NCBI GenBank assembly: GCA_029261155.1
Contig: JAJDBW010000018.1
Span: forward strand, 1-40,878
From: Nitrospirota bacterium
GTDB lineage: Bacteria > Nitrospirota > Nitrospiria > SBBL01 > JAADHI01
Reading direction: 5' to 3'
Length of the DNA: 40,878 nt
Both the position numbers and the translations under genes were made by a program. Below, in pieces: positions 26,547-38,794 of this stretch (its first letter is position 1; every line of letters starts with the position of its first letter). The notes beneath the pieces were generated by a model. It was given only the letters and a program-made list of their open reading frames with translations. It was not told the origin of the DNA and did not search any database.

Positions 26547-29309
26547 TTGTCCTTCAAGAGATTTGGTGTGATTTTATTCCTCATCCTGGCTACCGGGTTT
26601 TTATCCGGCTGTCTTGAAGACAAGGTTGCTCCCGAATCCGATGTGGAGCCCACGGTTGTTGCCGTCTCCGTTAGCCCGGCGACCCTTACTTTACCGACGG
26701 GTGGCTCGGCCGTCTTTACGGCTTCGTTGACCGGCAGCGGAAATACGGTTGTCAACTGGTCGATTCAAGAAGGCTCCAGTGGCGGAAGCGTTTCCAGCAA
26801 GGGGCTTTACACCGCGCCTGATTTCTCCGGCACTTTCCACGTTGTGGCGACCAGTGTCGTCGATCCCGAAAAAATAGCCACGGCGACGGTCGTGGTGTCC
26901 TCCTTGCTCGACGCTACCTTTGGCCTCAACGGCAAAGTCCAAACTGCTTTTGGCGGAAACGATCGCGTGAATGCCCTTAAGCTGCAATCCGATGGAAAAA
27001 TTCTCGCCGCGGGCTTTTCTTTAAACGGGACGAAGAACAACTTTGCCTTGGTCCGTTACAACGCAGACGGAAGCCTCGATACGAGCTTTGGTCTCAATGG
27101 TAAGGTGACGACCGATCTCGGTAGCGCGAGCGAAGCCCAGGCCATGGCCATTCAAACGGACGGGAAAATTGTCTTGGGTGGCTTCGTCTTAACCGGCATA
27201 AAGAGCAAATTCGCCCTGGTTCGATATCACCGCGACGGGACTCTGGATACGGCCTTCGGTGTTGGCGGTCAGGTAACGACTTCGGTTGGGAGTACGAGTG
27301 GAAGTGGTGGAAAAATGAGAGCCTTGGTGATTCAAAGCGACGGTAAAATTGTTGCGGGGGGCTTTTCTTTTCTTTCACAAAATGATTTTACCCTGAGCCG
27401 TTATAATACTAACGGTGCTCTTGATACGACCTTTGGAACAGGAGGTGTTGTGAGGACCGACTTTGGTGGGAGCGAACTTAACGGGTTGGCCCTTCAGACC
27501 GACGGCAAGATCGTTGCCAGTGGTTTTGCTGGAGGCCTTACCAACCCGGGGTTGCGCGATTTTGCTCTTGCTCGTTATAGCGTTAATGGGACTCTAGATA
27601 TGAGCTTCGGTACAGGTGGGAAGGTGAGTGTAATAGAGAACCGTGCCCAGGAATCTAAGAGTCTGTTAATTCAAGCTAACGGCAAGATTCTTGCGGGGGG
27701 CTACTCAGCAAATCCTAGCAATAATGATTTTGCGTTAGCACGGTTTAATTCCGACGGGAGCTTGGACACGACATTCGATAATGACGGAAAAGTAACCACG
27801 ACCATCGGCTCTGGAAGTGAACAGGTTAATAGCCTTCATGTCCTTTCGGATGGAAAAATCGTTGCGGTCGGGTATTCCTCGAATGGAACCGACAACGATT
27901 TCGCCTTGGCGCGATACAATGCCAATGGGACTCTCGATACTGCATTTGATGGAGATGGCAAGCTGACCACGGCAATCGGCAGCGGCGCGGATGAGGCGCG
28001 CGGTCTGCTGATTCAAAGCGATGGCAAAATTGTCGCAGGGGGATTTACATTAAGCAGTTTACGGACGGATTTTGCCCTGGCGCGCTACAATACCGATGGA
28101 AGCCTCGATAGTACGTTCGATGTCGATGGTAGCCTTACAACCACGATTGGTGACGGTAACGATGAAATCAAGGCAATCGGTGTTCAATCGAATGGGAATG
28201 TTATCGCCGCGGGTTCTGCCTTTGGTGTGGCAGGTAACCTGAATAATGATTTTGCCCTCGCACGTTATAACAGTGGCGGGATCTTGGATGGCCGTACAAG
28301 CACGGCCATCGGCACAAAAGACGATATCGCGCAGGCCCTAGTCATTCAGAGCGACGATAAGATCGTGGTGGGTGGCGTGGCCTTTATGACATCCACGAAC
28401 GATTTTGCTCTGGTCCGCTACTTGGCCGACGGCACCCTAGATACCACCTTCGATACCGATGGGAAGCTCACCACCGCGATTGGCACCGGTAACGATGCCA
28501 TCAATGCCCTTGCCCTGCAAGGGGATGGAAAGATTGTTGCGGCGGGCACGGCGTTTATTGGGGTGAATAATAATTTCGCACTGGCGCGTTATACCTCGGC
28601 AGGTGTTTTGGATACCACCTTCGATGGAGACGGTAAACTCAGCACGGCGGTCGGCACAGGCAGCAGCTTTGGAAAGGCTGTTCAAGTCCAATCCGACGGA
28701 AAAATCCTGGTAGCGGGCATGGCCTCGAATGGAAGTGACTTCGATTTTGCGCTGGTGCGCTATAATACAAATGGCAGCCTCGATACGACCTTCGATACAG
28801 ACGGAATGGTGATGACGCCTGTGGGCTCAGGCCACGACGTCGCCAATGCCATGATGATTCAATCGGATGGCAAAATTCTTGTCGTCGGCGGAACAATCAC
28901 CGGAACGCCAGCGGGCGTGTTCTCCATCGTCCGTTACAATACCGATGGCAGCTTGGATAGCGGTTTCGGCCTTGGCGGGATTGTTACGGCTGTCATCGGT
29001 GATGCGGGAAACAACGACAGTCAGGCCTTGGCCGTGCTTGCGCAGTCGGACGGCAAGATCGTCGTCGGGGGTTTTGTTTACAGTGTCGAAAATAACCGTG
29101 ATTTTGCCTTGGCGCGGTTTTTAGCCGATGGGAGCTTGGATCCGACCTTTGGGACCGGTGGGAAGGAAATCTCGCCCTTAGGCGCCGGGATCGATGAGGT
29201 TCATGGCCTCCTCATTCAATCGGTCGATGGCAAAATCGTTGCGGGTGGCGCGGTATTTAACGCCAATAATGAGAATTCGGATTTTGCCTTGACGCGATAT
29301 CTGCCCTGA
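26547..29309 (+). CDS. delta-60 repeat lipoprotein with N-terminal Ig-like domain
   Basis: A 920-residue exported protein. The lipobox LSGC (Cys22) is followed by a bacterial Ig-like domain (about 35-118, with VSPATLTLPTGGSAVFTAS). From about residue 120 to the end there are 14 tandem repeats of about 57 residues of the form LDTTFGTGGK-VTT-IG...LQSDGKIVAGG...DFALARYN-DGS, the delta-60 repeat (TIGR02608 type), probably beta-propeller blades. Repeat 9 (about 28284-28440) lacks the TFGTDGK part. Translation starts at TTG 26547 with AAGGAG five bases upstream. It is likely a surface protein of unknown role. Confidence 0.88.
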   Translation: MSFKRFGVILFLILATGFLSGCLEDKVAPESDVEPTVVAVSVSPATLTLPTGGSAVFTASLTGSGNTVVNWSIQEGSSGGSVSSKGLYTAPDFSGTFHVVATSVVDPEKIATATVVVSSLLDATFGLNGKVQTAFGGNDRVNALKLQSDGKILAAGFSLNGTKNNFALVRYNADGSLDTSFGLNGKVTTDLGSASEAQAMAIQTDGKIVLGGFVLTGIKSKFALVRYHRDGTLDTAFGVGGQVTTSVGSTSGSGGKMRALVIQSDGKIVAGGFSFLSQNDFTLSRYNTNGALDTTFGTGGVVRTDFGGSELNGLALQTDGKIVASGFAGGLTNPGLRDFALARYSVNGTLDMSFGTGGKVSVIENRAQESKSLLIQANGKILAGGYSANPSNNDFALARFNSDGSLDTTFDNDGKVTTTIGSGSEQVNSLHVLSDGKIVAVGYSSNGTDNDFALARYNANGTLDTAFDGDGKLTTAIGSGADEARGLLIQSDGKIVAGGFTLSSLRTDFALARYNTDGSLDSTFDVDGSLTTTIGDGNDEIKAIGVQSNGNVIAAGSAFGVAGNLNNDFALARYNSGGILDGRTSTAIGTKDDIAQALVIQSDDKIVVGGVAFMTSTNDFALVRYLADGTLDTTFDTDGKLTTAIGTGNDAINALALQGDGKIVAAGTAFIGVNNNFALARYTSAGVLDTTFDGDGKLSTAVGTGSSFGKAVQVQSDGKILVAGMASNGSDFDFALVRYNTNGSLDTTFDTDGMVMTPVGSGHDVANAMMIQSDGKILVVGGTITGTPAGVFSIVRYNTDGSLDSGFGLGGIVTAVIGDAGNNDSQALAVLAQSDGKIVVGGFVYSVENNRDFALARFLADGSLDPTFGTGGKEISPLGAGIDEVHGLLIQSVDGKIVAGGAVFNANNENSDFALTRYLP

Positions 29310-29468: not shown

Positions 29469-29972
29469 ATGTCGAACCGATCGAAAAATGGAGATCAGAA
29501 AAAAGGCCCGCTTGTGGGAATTGTGGGCGGAAGCAAGAGCGATTTTCCCATACTCGAAAAAGCGGTCGATCTCTTATCGGCCTTGAAAATCGCCAGTGAA
29601 TTGAAGGTGGTTTCGGCCCATCGTACTCCGGATTTGCTCTTTGAATATGCCGAAGAGGCAAGAGGTCGAGGCATTGAGGTCATCATCGCGGGGGCTGGCG
29701 GGGCGGCCCATCTTCCCGGGATGCTGGCTGCCAAAACGGCGCTTCCGATTATCGGCGTTCCGATCCCGAGCGAGCATTTACGCGGTCTCGATTCGCTCTT
29801 GTCCATCGTTCAAATGCCGCGCGGCATTCCGGTGGCAACGGTTGCCATCGGTGGGTCGCAAAACGCCGCCCTCTTGGCTGCGGAAATCCTTGCGCTTAAA
29901 TATCCCGCTGTCTTAAAAGAACTCCTTTCTTATCGTTCGGCCTTGACCCGCTCGGTACTCGAAGAGGCCTAG
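29469..29972 (+). CDS. purE: N5-carboxyaminoimidazole ribonucleotide mutase
   Basis: A 167-residue class I PurE, which converts N5-CAIR to CAIR in purine synthesis. Motifs are GIVGGSKSD (the phosphate-binding GS-SD loop), VVSAHRTPD with the catalytic His, AGAGGAAHLPGMLAA, and the late MPRGIPVATVAIG. It is followed by purK after 2 bases, and the pair act in sequence, as expected for a class I enzyme that needs PurK. Confidence 0.97.
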   Translation: MSNRSKNGDQKKGPLVGIVGGSKSDFPILEKAVDLLSALKIASELKVVSAHRTPDLLFEYAEEARGRGIEVIIAGAGGAAHLPGMLAAKTALPIIGVPIPSEHLRGLDSLLSIVQMPRGIPVATVAIGGSQNAALLAAEILALKYPAVLKELLSYRSALTRSVLEEA

Positions 29973-29974
29973 GC

Positions 29975-31132
29975 TTGATTCCGCCCGGTCACAAGATCGG
30001 TATTTTAGGTGGAGGACAGCTCGGGACTTTTTTTACCCTCGCGGCAAAAAGACAGGGTTATTTTGTCACTGTTTGGGATCCGGATCCGGAGGCGCCAGCC
30101 CATGCCTGGGCCGATATTCGCATTACTAAGGCCTTCGATGATCCGGAGGCTCGATCCCTTTTCGTAAGCCACTGCGAGGCGGCGACCTACGAGTGGGAAA
30201 ACCTCCCCGTCGAAACCGTTGCCGAGCTGGAAAGCGAAATGCCCGTGCATCCCGGCAGCCGGGTTTTATCTCTTTTTCAAAACAGAATCGCAGAAAAAAA
30301 CTTTCTCACAGAACATCGCTTCCCGGTCACTCCCTACCTGCATGTCCATCAAATTCAAGAACTTGAGCGCGCGATCCAAAAATTGGGGCTCCCGGTTGTT
30401 TGTAAAACGGCGACCACAGGCTACGACGGACATGGGCAATGGCGGATTGAGCGGCTCAAAGACATGGCCTCGCTTGGGCCCTTGCTCCATGACTGCGCCA
30501 GCGGATGGATTGTGGAGAAGTGGGTTCCTTTTGCGAGCGAGCTCTCCGTCGTCGCCGTTCGAAATGAAGTCGGCAATGTTGTGGTCTATCCGGTGGTGGA
30601 AAACCGTCACGAAGGGGCAATTCTTCGCCAATGTCGGGTGCCTGCAGAGATGGAGGCCGGCCTCGCCGACAAGGTGTCTTCACTCGCTGAAGCGGTCTTG
30701 ACTGCGCTGAAGGGCGTGGGTGTTTTTTGCATCGAATTTTTTCTTCTTAAAGACGGCACCCTCTTAATTAACGAAATTGCCCCGCGTCCACATAATTCGG
30801 GGCACTATTCTATGGACGCCTGTTCGGTCTCGCAGTTTGAGCATCAATTGCGGGCCCTCTGCGGGCTCCCCTTATTACCGCCACACTTGTTTTCGCCTGC
30901 GGTGATGATCAATATATTAGGTGCGGAGATTCAGGCTTTAGCCACGGGAAAAAGCCTGAACACCTTGTTGGAGATTGAGGGGTGCCGCGTCTATCACTAT
31001 CGAAAAAACAGAATTAAACGCCGCCGGAAAATGGGGCATATTACGCTTATGAGTGCGAATCGAGATCAGCTCTTAGCGAAGGCGGATCTTGTTCGATCAA
31101 TCCTCGATCGCGCAGGGAGAAGGGAAGCCTAA
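29975..31132 (+). CDS. purK: N5-carboxyaminoimidazole ribonucleotide synthase
   Basis: A 385-residue ATP-grasp enzyme that carboxylates AIR with ATP and bicarbonate to give N5-CAIR for PurE. Visible are the N-terminal GILGGGQLG, VCKTATTGYDGHGQW in the ATP-grasp part, and NEIAPRPHNSGHYSMDAC near the metal-binding site. It begins with TTG 29975, two bases after the purE stop and with GAGG about 8 bases upstream, so it is translationally coupled. Its last 86 bases overlap the 3' end of a minus-strand gene. Confidence 0.96.
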   Translation: MIPPGHKIGILGGGQLGTFFTLAAKRQGYFVTVWDPDPEAPAHAWADIRITKAFDDPEARSLFVSHCEAATYEWENLPVETVAELESEMPVHPGSRVLSLFQNRIAEKNFLTEHRFPVTPYLHVHQIQELERAIQKLGLPVVCKTATTGYDGHGQWRIERLKDMASLGPLLHDCASGWIVEKWVPFASELSVVAVRNEVGNVVVYPVVENRHEGAILRQCRVPAEMEAGLADKVSSLAEAVLTALKGVGVFCIEFFLLKDGTLLINEIAPRPHNSGHYSMDACSVSQFEHQLRALCGLPLLPPHLFSPAVMINILGAEIQALATGKSLNTLLEIEGCRVYHYRKNRIKRRRKMGHITLMSANRDQLLAKADLVRSILDRAGRREA

Positions 31133-31523
31133 GAGGCACCGCGTCATTTTGATCGGGATAAAGATTCAAAGGAAGCACCGCAAAGACGACATGGATTGTG
31201 ACTGAGGTTTGGGGTGGGTTTGGGACAGGAATATAGCGCCGACCGATGGCCCTGAGTGTCAAGGGGCCATGGAAATTCAGAGGGATTTGGATCGTCCATT
31301 CGAAAGGCATGGACGAATCGAGGTGCGCCTTTATGATGCCCTGATTGGAGATCAACAAGACGCCGAATAGCGGGGGGAGGTCTCCGGGGTCTACTGAAAC
31401 CTTTAGGGTAGTTCCCGCTGCGATGATATGCCCCTCCTTTGGACTGCTAAATGAGAAGGCAGCGGAATTGGAAGTTCTTGCGCCAAAGATCGCCACTAGG
31501 AAAATCAGCACTATTATTTTCAT
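31047..31523 (-). CDS. small secreted Ig-like domain protein, 3' overlap with purK
   Basis: A 158-residue exported protein of unknown function. A signal peptide (KIIVLIFLVAIFG) leads into one beta-sandwich-like domain, roughly residues 25-115 (FSFSSPKEGHIIAAGTTLKV, then PFEWTIQIPL and SVTIHVV), resembling bacterial Ig-like folds. The last ~28 residues are antisense to the end of purK, basic and unlike the domain, so they may be a recent extension after loss of a stop codon. An ATG at 31541 is possible, but ATG 31523 has GGGAG seven bases upstream. Confidence 0.62.
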   Translation of the reverse strand: MKIIVLIFLVAIFGARTSNSAAFSFSSPKEGHIIAAGTTLKVSVDPGDLPPLFGVLLISNQGIIKAHLDSSMPFEWTIQIPLNFHGPLTLRAIGRRYIPVPNPPQTSVTIHVVFAVLPLNLYPDQNDAVPLRLPFSLRDRGLIEQDPPSLRADLDSHS

Positions 31524-31748
31524 TTTTGACTCCCAGGCCATGCGCTATTCGATCTACAGGGCCTTCTAGGCACAGATCCCTTTATCCACAATATAAAAAC
31601 CTTCAACAATATGATGGGCGATGAAGATGAAGCGTGGGGTACCTATCGTCCCATTTGAGAGAAGGCGATAGATCCTTGTCGACACTTGCAACAGTCTATC
31701 AGGGCGAGGCCTTGGGATTCAACGGACAGCGGGGCGAGGGGGTTCAGC

Positions 31749-33104
31749 TTATTTTCTGTGGAGACGAACGCGATTGCGTCCTTCCCGCTTGGCGAGATAT
31801 AGGGCTTCGTCTGCGCAACGAATGAGTTCTTTGGGGGAAAGGGTCGATCCTTGGATGTCTCGAAAAGTACAGACCCCGAAACTGCAGGTTAGTGTTGAGC
31901 CGTTGGGGAGGAAATTGGCGGTTTCGGTGGCCTGGCGAAGACGTTCGGCGAAGGCCACGGCTTCAACCTCGTCCGTTTCAGACATGAGGATCAGAAACTC
32001 TTCGCCGCCAAAACGGGCGAGGACGTCATAGGGTCGTATAATCGATTCGAAGCAGCTAGATAGGCCTTGGAGGACGTGGTCGCCAACGAGATGGCCGAAT
32101 TTATCGTTGATGAGTTTAAAGTAATCAACATCGACTAAAATAACCGAAAGCGGGCTTTTTAAGCGGGAAGCTCGGCCAATTTCCGAAACCATAACTTTGT
32201 TAAGGTAACGTCGATTATAAAGTCCGGTGAGTGGGTCGCGAATGGACAGTTCTTTTATTTTTTCGAAGGCTTGTTGTTTTTGAATCGCGATGACAGCCTG
32301 GGCCGCCAGCATCCGCAGGCTTTCCAGGAGAGAAGAGGATTGGAAATTTCTGGGTTCGAAATCGTCGGCGTATAAAATGCCGACCGGCCCCTTCTCCGAG
32401 ACGAGGGGGATGGCAATGAGTGAGCGTATCCCTTCTTTTAAGATAATGGGATTGTTGAAGGCGGGAAAGTCGCTGATGTCGGGGACCAAAATCGGTTCGT
32501 TTTTGGAAAGAATATGTTCGGTTAACCCACCAGGCCGAACCGGATAGACGGCGTTTTTGTAGAACTCAGATGAAAACCCTTTGGTCGCCACGAGAAAGAG
32601 CTGCTGTTTTTCTTTGTTATAGACCGAAAGCGATCCGGCCGGCATGCCCGTAATGCGGACCCCGCCTGCGACGATGGCTTCAAAGATTTGATCGGGTGTT
32701 TCGGAGCTGGAAAGCATGAGGCTTATATCGAGGAGAATCTGGTGCTCTCCGAGTTGCTGGATGATCCGGGACTCCTTGTCCTCGAGTTCGAGAATAACAT
32801 TCCATAAAATCTGGGTGACTTCGCCCGTGGCCACATCGAATTGAGCATCTGGAAAGTTGAGGAGTTTTGTCCCAACGATCGGGTTTCCGGTTAAATCGAA
32901 AACCAGGTCTACGGAGAGGTTGTTAAGTAGGGGGAAAGGGTCTTCCAGAAAGGTTGGAATATTTGCTTCTTTGGCCATTTCAATGGCCGGGGCTTCGGGG
33001 TTGAGGTCTGCGACCCCTGCGATTTGAATCCAGTTAAATTGGCGCAAACGGCTCAGTACGGCTTTTCCGCCCTTCCCGGCGCCGATAATGAAGACCTTGA
33101 CCAT
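31749..33104 (-). CDS. diguanylate cyclase with N-terminal NAD-binding-type Rossmann domain, GAF and GGDEF
   Basis: A 451-residue protein with an unusual layout. Residues 1-100 look like a dinucleotide-binding Rossmann domain: VFIIGAGKGGKAV (GxGxxG at 8-13), with an acidic residue in VADLNP (Asp33) at the end of strand 2, as in NAD-preferring enzymes. A GAF domain covers about 120-278 and a GGDEF domain about 285-451. Catalytic GGEEF is at 366-370 and inhibitory site RPYD at 357-360, exactly five residues upstream. The protein should make c-di-GMP under control of a nucleotide or redox signal; that control is inferred. There is no ribosome binding site; the promoter at 33111-33138 puts transcription start at the ATG itself. 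Confidence 0.86.
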   Translation of the reverse strand: MVKVFIIGAGKGGKAVLSRLRQFNWIQIAGVADLNPEAPAIEMAKEANIPTFLEDPFPLLNNLSVDLVFDLTGNPIVGTKLLNFPDAQFDVATGEVTQILWNVILELEDKESRIIQQLGEHQILLDISLMLSSSETPDQIFEAIVAGGVRITGMPAGSLSVYNKEKQQLFLVATKGFSSEFYKNAVYPVRPGGLTEHILSKNEPILVPDISDFPAFNNPIILKEGIRSLIAIPLVSEKGPVGILYADDFEPRNFQSSSLLESLRMLAAQAVIAIQKQQAFEKIKELSIRDPLTGLYNRRYLNKVMVSEIGRASRLKSPLSVILVDVDYFKLINDKFGHLVGDHVLQGLSSCFESIIRPYDVLARFGGEEFLILMSETDEVEAVAFAERLRQATETANFLPNGSTLTCSFGVCTFRDIQGSTLSPKELIRCADEALYLAKREGRNRVRLHRK

Positions 33105-35001: not shown

Positions 35002-37686
35002 ATGTTGGGCGTAAGCAATATCGTTAGAAAAGTGATTGGAAGTCGCAACGACAGGGAGCTGAAGCGATTCGACCCACTTGTTGCAAAAGTCAATGCCTTT
35101 GAAGCCTCGGTGGCCGACCTCTCCGACACGGCCCTGCGTGAAAAGACCCTTGAATTTCGAAAGCGGCTGGGTGTCTTCGGGGAGGAGGGGACTCCCGATC
35201 CTGAATTACCGCAAGCGACCCACGAAACCCTAGATGACCTCTTACCAGAAGCTTTTGCCGTGGCCCGTGAAGCAGCGAGACGCGTGCTAGGCATGCGGCA
35301 TTTCGACTCTCAAATTTTAGGCGGAATCGTCCTCCACGAAGGAAAGATTGCCGAGATGAAAACCGGTGAAGGAAAGACGCTTGTTGCCACCCTTCCTGTC
35401 TATTTAAATGCCTTGCTCGGCAAGGGTGTCCATGTTGTTACTGTGAACGATTACCTGGCGAAGCGGGATTCCCAATGGATGGGCAAGGTCTATCAGTTTT
35501 TAGGATTGACGGTCGGATTGGTTCAACACGATATCCCGGATGCAGCGCGTCTGCAGGCCTATGGTGCCGATATTACTTATGGAACCAATAACGAGTTCGG
35601 CTTCGACTACCTCCGCGACAATATGAAATTCGATCCGAAAAGCTTTGTTCAACCCGAGCACTATTACGCCATCATCGACGAGGTGGACAGCATCTTAATC
35701 GACGAGGCCAGAACGCCGCTGATTATCTCCGGGCCTTCAGAAGACTCCACCGAGCTTTACTATCGGATTAATCAGATCATTCCACAACTCAAGTTCGAGG
35801 ATGATTATACGATAGAGGAAAAGAGCAAAACGGTGACCCTGACCGACGATGGCAATATCAAGGTCGAACGCTTATTGGGCGTTGAAAATCTCTACGATTT
35901 GGTCAACATTTCCTTGGTTCATCACGTTCTCCAAGGGCTTAAGGCGCACGCCCTCTTTAAGCGCGATGTTGATTATGTCGTAAAGGATGGAGAAGTCCTC
36001 ATTGTCGATGAGTTTACCGGGCGCCTTATGGCCGGTCGGCGTTGGAGCGATGGTCTTCATCAGGCCGTGGAAGCGAAGGAAGGGGTTAAGATTGCCAACG
36101 AAAACCAAACGCTCGCATCGATCACTTTCCAGAATTATTTTCGCCTCTACGATAAATTAGGTGGCATGACCGGAACGGCCGATACGGAAGCGGCCGAGTT
36201 TCATAAGATCTATAATCTCGAAGTCATCGTTATTCCCCCCAATCGCAAAATGATCCGTGAAAATTATTCCGATGTTATCTACCGCACCGAAAAAGAAAAG
36301 TTCGAGGCCATAGTTGAAGAAATTATGGAGATGAACAAGGTGGGCCGACCAGTGCTGGTGGGGACAATTTCTATCGAAACTTCAGAAAGAATATCGGCGC
36401 TTTTGAAACGGCAAGGGATTCCCCATTCTGTGTTGAATGCAAAATTTCACGAAAAAGAAGCCGACATCATCGCCCAAGCCGGACGAAAAGGGGCTGTGAC
36501 GATCGCCACAAATATGGCGGGGCGGGGTACAGATATTCTTTTGGGCGGCAATCCCGAATTTCTCGTCCAGCAATATGAACGGCAGCATCCCGATGCCACA
36601 CCCGAAGCCTTGGAAAAAATCGCCGAGCAATATCAACACGAAAGCGAAAAAGAAAAAGAAGAGGTGCTTCATTTTGGGGGTTTGCACATTATCGGAACGG
36701 AGCGTCACGAATCGCGTCGTGTCGATAATCAGTTGCGTGGACGATCCGGTCGCCAGGGCGATCCGGGTTCTTCCCGGTTCTATCTTTCCTTAGAGGACGA
36801 TCTGCTGCGCATTTTCGGTTCCGACCGCATTGCAAATCTGATGAATCGCCTGGGTATGGAGGAGGGCGTGCCTATCGAACATCGGATGGTGACCAAGGCA
36901 ATCGAAGGGGCCCAGAAACGGGTTGAAGGGCATAACTTCGACATCCGTAAGCAACTCCTCGAATATGACGATGTGATGAACAAGCAGCGTACAGTTATTT
37001 ACAACCGCCGCCGTGAAGTGCTCTCGCCGGGGGGGATCCGCGAAGATATCGAAGAGATGATCGAAGAACAAGTCGACATGCTCCTCGATACGTTTTGCCC
37101 CGAGGAGTCCTATTCCGAATCTTGGGATGCGACCGGTTTGTTGGAAGGATTGTCTCACCATTTTGCAATGAGCCTAAACGAAGAAGCGCTCGGATTTCCC
37201 GAAATTGGGCGGGAAGCATTGAAAGAAACCCTGCTTGAAAAAGTAAAGGGACTTTATGAGCAAAAGCGCGCCGAGTTTGGAGAAGAATTAAGTAACACAA
37301 TCGAGAAACAAATCTTTCTGCGCATGATCGATACCCTCTGGAAAGACCATCTGCTTGCGATGGACTCCCTCAAAGAAGGTATCGGATTGAGAGGTTATGG
37401 TCAAAAGGAGCCGCTAAGCGAATACAAAAGAGAAGGTTTCGAAATGTTTAGTGACATGATTGATCGTATTAAGTCGGATACCATTGAAAACCTATTCCGT
37501 GTCCAGATCGTTAACGAAGAAAAACGCCCGGTCGCGACGCTCTTTCCCAAAGAGCAAGCCATGCAAATGAATCGAGGCGAAGCGGCTCCGCCGCAAACCC
37601 AGCATCGTGATGGAAAGAAGATCGGTCGAAACGATCCTTGCTCTTGTGGGAGCGGGAAAAAATATAAGAAATGCCATGGCAGGTAA
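35002..37686 (+). CDS. secA: preprotein translocase subunit SecA
   Basis: An 894-residue SecA, the motor ATPase that pushes proteins through SecYEG. Walker A TGEGKT is at 121-126 and the DEAD-type DEVD at 226-229 ([15 protein letters not shown]). The helicase motif [10 protein letters not shown], the [12 protein letters not shown] motif and the C-terminal zinc site (Cys880, Cys882, Cys891, His892 in [17 protein letters not shown]) are all intact. The zinc tail binds SecB or ribosomes in other bacteria. AGAGGA lies about 6 bases upstream of the ATG. The last 11 bases overlap the start of a GGDEF gene. Confidence 0.98.
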
Positions 37687-38794
37687 ACCGAAAGCCAAAA
37701 ATGCAAAAAAAAAATCACCCAGCTCGCCACGCAAGCTCTCTCCGCTTCAACTGATTCGTAAAGAAAATAGGCAGCTTAACCAAGATCTAAAAAAAAGAAC
37801 GCGTGAGCTCTCCTACTTTATGGACGCCGGCAAGGCGCTGGCGGAGACGCTCGAATTTAAAAAAGTCCTTCGGGTGATCCACGCTTCGGCACGGAAATTA
37901 GTCCGCTGCGAAGATGTCTCCCTTCTTTTATGCGACGAACTACAGGAAGTTCTTCGTTATGAAATCCTAAAGAAGACCACAGCAAAAAGCATCAAAAACA
38001 TCGAATACAAAATCGGAAAAGGACCGGCGGGGAGAGCGGTTGAAAAGGGGGTTCCGGTTTTGATTTCGGATGCCGAGAAAAAACGGGCCGAACTGAAAAA
38101 GAACTATCCTTTTATTGAAGTGCGTTCTCTTTTATGCCTGCCTATACTCAGTAAAAATCGCGTTATCGGTGTGCTCCAACTCTTGAATCGGCTTGGCGAG
38201 GACTGCTTTAACGCCCATGACCTCCAACTTTTAACCAACTTGGTCGAACAGGCGGCGCTTGCCATTGCGCGTTCCGATCTTTATCAAACCATGTCTGACC
38301 TTGCCGCCACCGATGACCTTACCAAGCTCTACAATCTGAGGTATTTTGGCCGCGCCTTGGATGTCGAACTGAGTCGGTGCAAGCGCTACGGTCTTTCGCT
38401 CTCTCTTATTTTTATCGATATTGATTATTTTAAGCGGGTCAACGATCGTCATGGTCATCTTGCCGGCAGTCAGGTCCTTGTCGAAATGGGCCGGATTATT
38501 CGGGACTGTTTTCGCGTGGTCGACATCGTCGCGCGCTATGGGGGGGACGAATTCGTGGTCATTCTTCCAGAGACCCATATGAAAAGAGCTTGCCAGGTGG
38601 CCGAGCGTGTGCGGCAGGCGGTCCTAAAAACAGAATTTCTGAAAGACAAGGGACTCTCGCTCAAGATTACGGCGAGCTTTGGCGTCGCCGGTTTTCCCGA
38701 GCACACAGATAACAAAACTGAATTAATCCACCTGGCTGACCAGGCCATGTACCAGTCAAAGGTCCTCGGTAGAAACCGCACAACTCTCGTTTAA
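37676..38794 (+). CDS. GAF-GGDEF diguanylate cyclase overlapping secA
   Basis: A 372-residue protein with a basic N-terminus (about 1-20), a short coiled coil (25-45), a GAF domain (about 50-200) and a GGDEF domain (about 205-372). The catalytic motif GGDEF is at 289-293, and the inhibitory site RVVD (280-283) is five residues upstream. It should make c-di-GMP under control of a small ligand bound by GAF. ATG 37676 lies inside the last codons of secA, in another frame, so its translation is probably coupled to secA. The frame is open upstream to 37607, but that part only shadows secA. Confidence 0.88.

Follow-up and report, generated by a model that had tools for sequence, protein, structure and literature searches.

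A predicted diguanylate cyclase encoded in a 40,878-nucleotide stretch of DNA from a Nitrospirota bacterium (hereafter the window) starts with a region resembling a dinucleotide-binding domain, which raises the question of what such a domain does in front of GAF and GGDEF domains. Judged from its sequence, the protein probably makes c-di-GMP when prompted by a small nucleotide, for example NAD(H).

Domain organization of the predicted cyclase

The gene occupies 31749..33104 on the minus strand, as do all its features given below, and its open reading frame has an ATG start, includes the stop codon and encodes 451 aa; full-length relatives with 54-70% identity have the same domain order. The Rossmann domain (residues 1-107; 32784..33104) was delimited by an AlphaFold2 model, PDB matches, a profile search and conservation. 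A preliminary description of this DNA had it directly joined to the GAF domain, which is not the case: the two are separated by some 28 residues of helical linker (108-134; 32703..32783), and the AlphaFold2 model places one helix at 95-119. The GAF domain (residues 135-275; 32280..32702) matches PF13185 (GAF_2, E 1.1e-15), and the GGDEF diguanylate cyclase domain (residues 288-445; 31770..32243) matches PF00990 (E 8.9e-43).

The GG(D/E)EF signature and the metal/GTP residues expected of a GGDEF domain are recognized from the PF00990 match, DVDYFKLINDKFGH and the active-site sequence GGEEF (residues 366-370; 31995..32009). Five residues separate GGEEF from the RxxD motif RPYD (residues 357-360; 32025..32036), which is presumably the product-inhibition site. 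Pfam matches and a motif check thereby confirm the earlier reading of joined GAF and GGDEF domains with intact GGEEF and RxxD. RxxD-5-GGEEF is kept in all complete relatives compared (23 distinct genes).

Of the 17 nearest genomes, 13 contain full-length relatives of 54-70% identity (as many as three in G003), and the remaining four have more distant matches of 34-43% identity. The order purE-purK-small ORF-cyclase (29469-33104 in the window) recurs in another genus of the family (G002, locus L200). Because full-length relatives exist in other genomes and the purE-purK order is kept in a relative, an assembly mis-join of a plain dehydrogenase is excluded.

Two other genes of the window, both on the plus strand, encode a 920-aa lipoprotein-like protein with many 'ALARYNADGSLDTTFG-GGK'-type repeats (26547-29309) and a second GAF-GGDEF protein without the Rossmann domain, immediately downstream of secA (37607-38794).

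The N-terminal region is predicted to adopt an NAD-type Rossmann fold

Residues 1-115 gave no Pfam family above the cut-off, and the window copy stays below every Pfam cut-off; its weak matches are to CoA_binding (the best, E 0.004) and GFO_IDH_MocA. The AlphaFold2 model of the N-terminal domain, built on a 12-row alignment, has a mean pLDDT of 89.7 and a pTM of 0.80. Its topology is beta-alpha-beta-alpha-alpha-beta-alpha-beta followed by the long C-terminal helix, with strands at 2-7, 26-32, 67-70 and 90-92 and helices between them. Foldseek returned acetaldehyde dehydrogenases and GAPDH as the top matches (7z3s, E 1.7e-5), and a second aligner ranked at the top an acetaldehyde dehydrogenase (4lrs; Z 11.9, 1.9 Å over 96 residues), KefC (Z 11.8), Gfo/Idh enzymes and Rex (3wg9, Z 10.8; 7wb3, Z 10.1), Z values so near one another that they point to a fold class without singling out any one function as closest. 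The PDB matches are NAD-binding Rossmann domains. The proposed dinucleotide-binding fold therefore stands, and a receiver or other non-nucleotide fold is excluded by the AlphaFold2 model and the PDB matches.

The glycine loop GAGKGG (G8-A9-G10-K11-G12-G13; 33066..33083) and Asp33 at the end of strand 2 (33006..33008) lie where the preliminary description had put a GxGxxG motif and an acidic residue, and a DLTG motif follows the fourth strand (residues 70-73; 32886..32897). When a Rossmann-type fingerprint drawn up for the purpose was run on residues 1-115, the native sequence matched, as did 21 of 100,000 shuffled versions. With the predicted fold, GxGxxG and an acidic residue ending strand 2, the model combines the features of an NAD(P)-binding Rossmann domain, and residues 1 to about 107 are confidently predicted to form an NAD-type Rossmann fold. 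A full-length model of a kinase carrying the same domain was only moderate (pLDDT 68, linker below 50) and was thus used solely for the repeated N-terminal topology.

The closest known domain, both by profile and by structure, is the NAD domain of acylating acetaldehyde dehydrogenase (TIGR03215; DmpF 1nvm, PheF 7z3s), which has the same glycine loop and, following strand 2, a comparable D-P-E-x-x-G-L stretch. However, the window protein has GAF-GGDEF in place of the catalytic/dimerisation domain, and its match to TIGR03215 stops at residue 73 with 20 bits (E 3.4e-4) against a cut-off of 282. A functional oxidoreductase half-domain, turning over a substrate within signalling, is a highly improbable reading of the Rossmann domain: although dehydrogenases are its nearest sequence relatives, Pfam detected no dehydrogenase catalytic or substrate domain after it in the proteins scanned, it ends in a helix running to the output, and the score just given is far below that of a family member.

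Rex is a Rossmann sensor of the NADH/NAD+ ratio that resembles the window protein in this domain; its output is a winged-helix DNA-binding domain, whereas that of the window family is an enzyme or kinase, and the window protein begins with the Rossmann domain and gave no winged-helix Pfam match. The RCK domain of KefC is likewise a regulatory Rossmann domain, but KefC is a membrane potassium efflux system. For Gfo/Idh/MocA (PF01408), the window copy scores 13-16 bits against a cut-off of 24, and GAF follows instead of a substrate domain. Known GAF-GGDEF cyclases have GAF, GGDEF, GGEEF and RxxD in common with the window protein, which adds the Rossmann input in front.

Residue conservation and the candidate ligand

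Conservation was read from 93 non-redundant domain copies (alignment A3, one insert column left out). G8 is invariant (100%) and G10 is kept in 94%, and the third glycine of the loop, position 13, is G in 65% and C in 32%. Cysteine at this position occurs mostly in histidine kinases, where a redox-active role is conceivable; as a departure from GxGxxG, it speaks against the NAD(H) reading. Position 33 is acidic in 98% of copies (D 87%, E 11%), and A38 (95%), A44 (97%), T72 (89%), G73 (91%) and W101 (89%) are also strongly conserved.

An acidic residue ending strand 2 classically indicates binding of NAD(H) over NADP(H), and NAD(H) as the ligand would fit both this residue and the NAD-binding neighbours, Rex included. 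A profile of the 93 rows matched PDB sequences of acetaldehyde dehydrogenase (1nvm, E 2.7e-8), Gfo/Idh (5e-6) and Rex (5zz5, 4.7e-4). Among the 93 members, 53 match GFO_IDH_MocA and 40 match NAD_binding_3 (both at E ≤0.01), and up to 11 match Rex models.

The alternative that the domain senses CoA or acyl-CoA, a nucleotide sugar or another nucleotide deserves weight, even though we consider it unlikely. CoA is the main rival ligand: the best, sub-cut-off Pfam match of the window copy is CoA_binding, the closest enzymes are CoA-acylating dehydrogenases, and acylating acetaldehyde dehydrogenases have a CoA binding site near the NAD site too. Moreover, 23 of the 93 members match a NeuD-type model. 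Against this, the acidic residue 33 is typical of NAD(H) binding, and CoA_binding is matched by far fewer members (10 of 93) than the NAD-binding families.

The Rossmann domain is under purifying selection (dN 0.10 and dS 0.64 against the paralogue on contig C12). Among relatives of more than 58% identity, the GAF domain is the best conserved (67-80%), followed by GGDEF and then by the Rossmann domain (50-67%), so that GAF may share or dominate sensing and may even be the main sensor. This gradient also speaks for a relic that binds no small molecule and serves dimerisation or partner binding, with GAF as the true sensor, as does the absence from the window copy of the GG-SAK segment common in other members. 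We nevertheless regard a relic as improbable, because the glycine loop, the acidic residue 33 and the TG motif are kept in members that have diverged widely, as well as in most of those with GGDEF, and because GAF is altogether absent from several of the kinases scanned and from the scanned sigma-54 member.

The Rossmann domain is fused to many outputs

Architectures were read from 133 distinct proteins, many of them cut by locus ends, with Pfam scans of examples. The partners of the module are GGDEF (with or without EAL), both HisKA types of histidine kinase, sigma-54 activators and DNA-binding heads of the LuxR type. The arrangement of the window protein, Rossmann with GAF-GGDEF, is found in L110, L111, L112, L115, L085 and L087, and is preceded by a LuxR-type GerE domain in L086, L088 and L139. 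Additionally, the domain is joined to GAF-GGDEF-EAL (L116), to GGDEF-EAL (L118), to more than one GAF and then GGDEF (L122, L129 and L167), and to GAF-PAS-HisKA-HATPase-receivers-GGDEF (L123). L145, the same gene as L102, has two Rossmann copies, both found there by the family profile, followed by PAS-PAS-HisKA-HATPase.

Tandem N-terminal Rossmann copies were seen in some Desulfobacterota kinases, such as L102, L105 and L106. Stand-alone copies of about 150 aa (L203-L206) occur in Desulfobacterota genomes beside seemingly unrelated genes, and these neighbours gave no functional clue.

A quick tree of the 93 domain copies requires 14 changes of output type, a count that is not an exact number of re-joining events, since sequence motifs supplied the output labels, one of which is wrong (the short copy L166, given as GGDEF), and many forks lack resolution. 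The starred branches of the tree force at least two output changes each for HisKA and for GGDEF, and the window copy falls inside a clade of eight GGDEF fusions that has full support. That the domain is joined to outputs of unrelated kinds, and in two or more phyla, is what is expected of a sensor.

Distribution of the module across genomes

The window genome (G000) has eight domain copies. Five are Rossmann-GAF-GGDEF paralogues, of which four are truncated by the end of a contig. Contigs C12 and C39 overlap exactly over 141 bp, and the C-terminal part is on C39, which makes it probable that one or more of the four is a whole gene split by the assembly. The set has the appearance of a recent gene expansion, at which the assembly broke. 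The five paralogues are dispersed over C10 (the window), C12 with C39, C18, C87 and C41 (L189-L193) and are 78-96% identical in DNA; their upstream genes are unrelated, and nearby genomes have one to three copies. The three divergent copies belong to a HisKA-HATPase kinase (L006), a sigma-54 AAA+ activator (L007) and a HisKA_3-type kinase that adjoins a NarL-type regulator (L008).

All 58 Nitrospiria genomes searched, the window genome included, carry the domain. Across the phylum Nitrospirota, matches at E 1e-3 were obtained in 210 of the 296 genomes sampled and matches at 1e-10 or better in about 170, including all 114 listed genomes of the class; the Nitrospirota matches weaker than 1e-10 may be ordinary dehydrogenases. 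In Desulfobacterota, the phylum of a Desulfobacteraceae locus, the corresponding figures are 115 of 247 genomes at 1e-3 and about 70 at 1e-10. The two phyla searched thus both hold the module, and its carriers comprise nitrifying, manganese-oxidising and sulphate-reducing groups. A search for a plasmid-borne module yielded just one weak Gfo/Idh match.

Discussion

The predicted fold, the motifs, the domain order, the selection and the recurrence with different outputs are established here. The best explanation for them, to which we assign a probability of about 0.55, is that an NAD(H)-type Rossmann sensor gates cyclase dimers, possibly together with GAF; in this model, we infer the identity of the ligand, the direction of control, the cyclase activity and the dimer mechanism. 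The protein would be a soluble diguanylate cyclase that senses through its first domain, a Rossmann domain binding a dinucleotide without catalysing a reaction. NAD(H), the most likely ligand, would occupy the glycine-loop pocket, and its binding would alter the packing of the helix leaving the Rossmann domain. Through the linker and GAF, this change may set how two GGDEF domains meet, such that c-di-GMP would be made when the ligand, or the redox ratio, is right, with the RxxD site supplying product feedback. In other proteins, the same module precedes kinase, sigma-54 activator or phosphodiesterase-type outputs.

Rossmann-fold regulators, such as Rex and KefC, and GAF-GGDEF cyclases are already known. 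The Rossmann family as a portable, widely shared input module seems undescribed: we found neither a dedicated Pfam/NCBIfam model for the input domain nor any description of such a domain in the open-licence papers searched. The earlier suggestion that a Rossmann domain is not a usual cyclase sensor holds for these models and papers, but not in the sense of a one-off, since the search of other genomes recovered the module in at least two phyla and with many output types.

On a more tentative level, with odds that we put somewhat below even, a portable and hitherto undescribed NAD(H)-sensing domain would couple the redox state to most of the major bacterial signalling outputs in Nitrospirota and Desulfobacterota, namely c-di-GMP synthesis and breakdown, phosphorelays and sigma-54 control. 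The familiar redox sensor, Rex, acts as a repressor, and to our knowledge few ways have been described in which bacteria pass the state of the NAD(H) pool straight to second messengers or kinases. If this reading is true, many uncharacterised regulators would have one testable receptor, and the domain would merit a family model of its own. Nitrifiers, manganese oxidisers and sulphate reducers run their energy metabolism near redox limits, which is where a shared cytosolic Rossmann module of this kind would be relevant.
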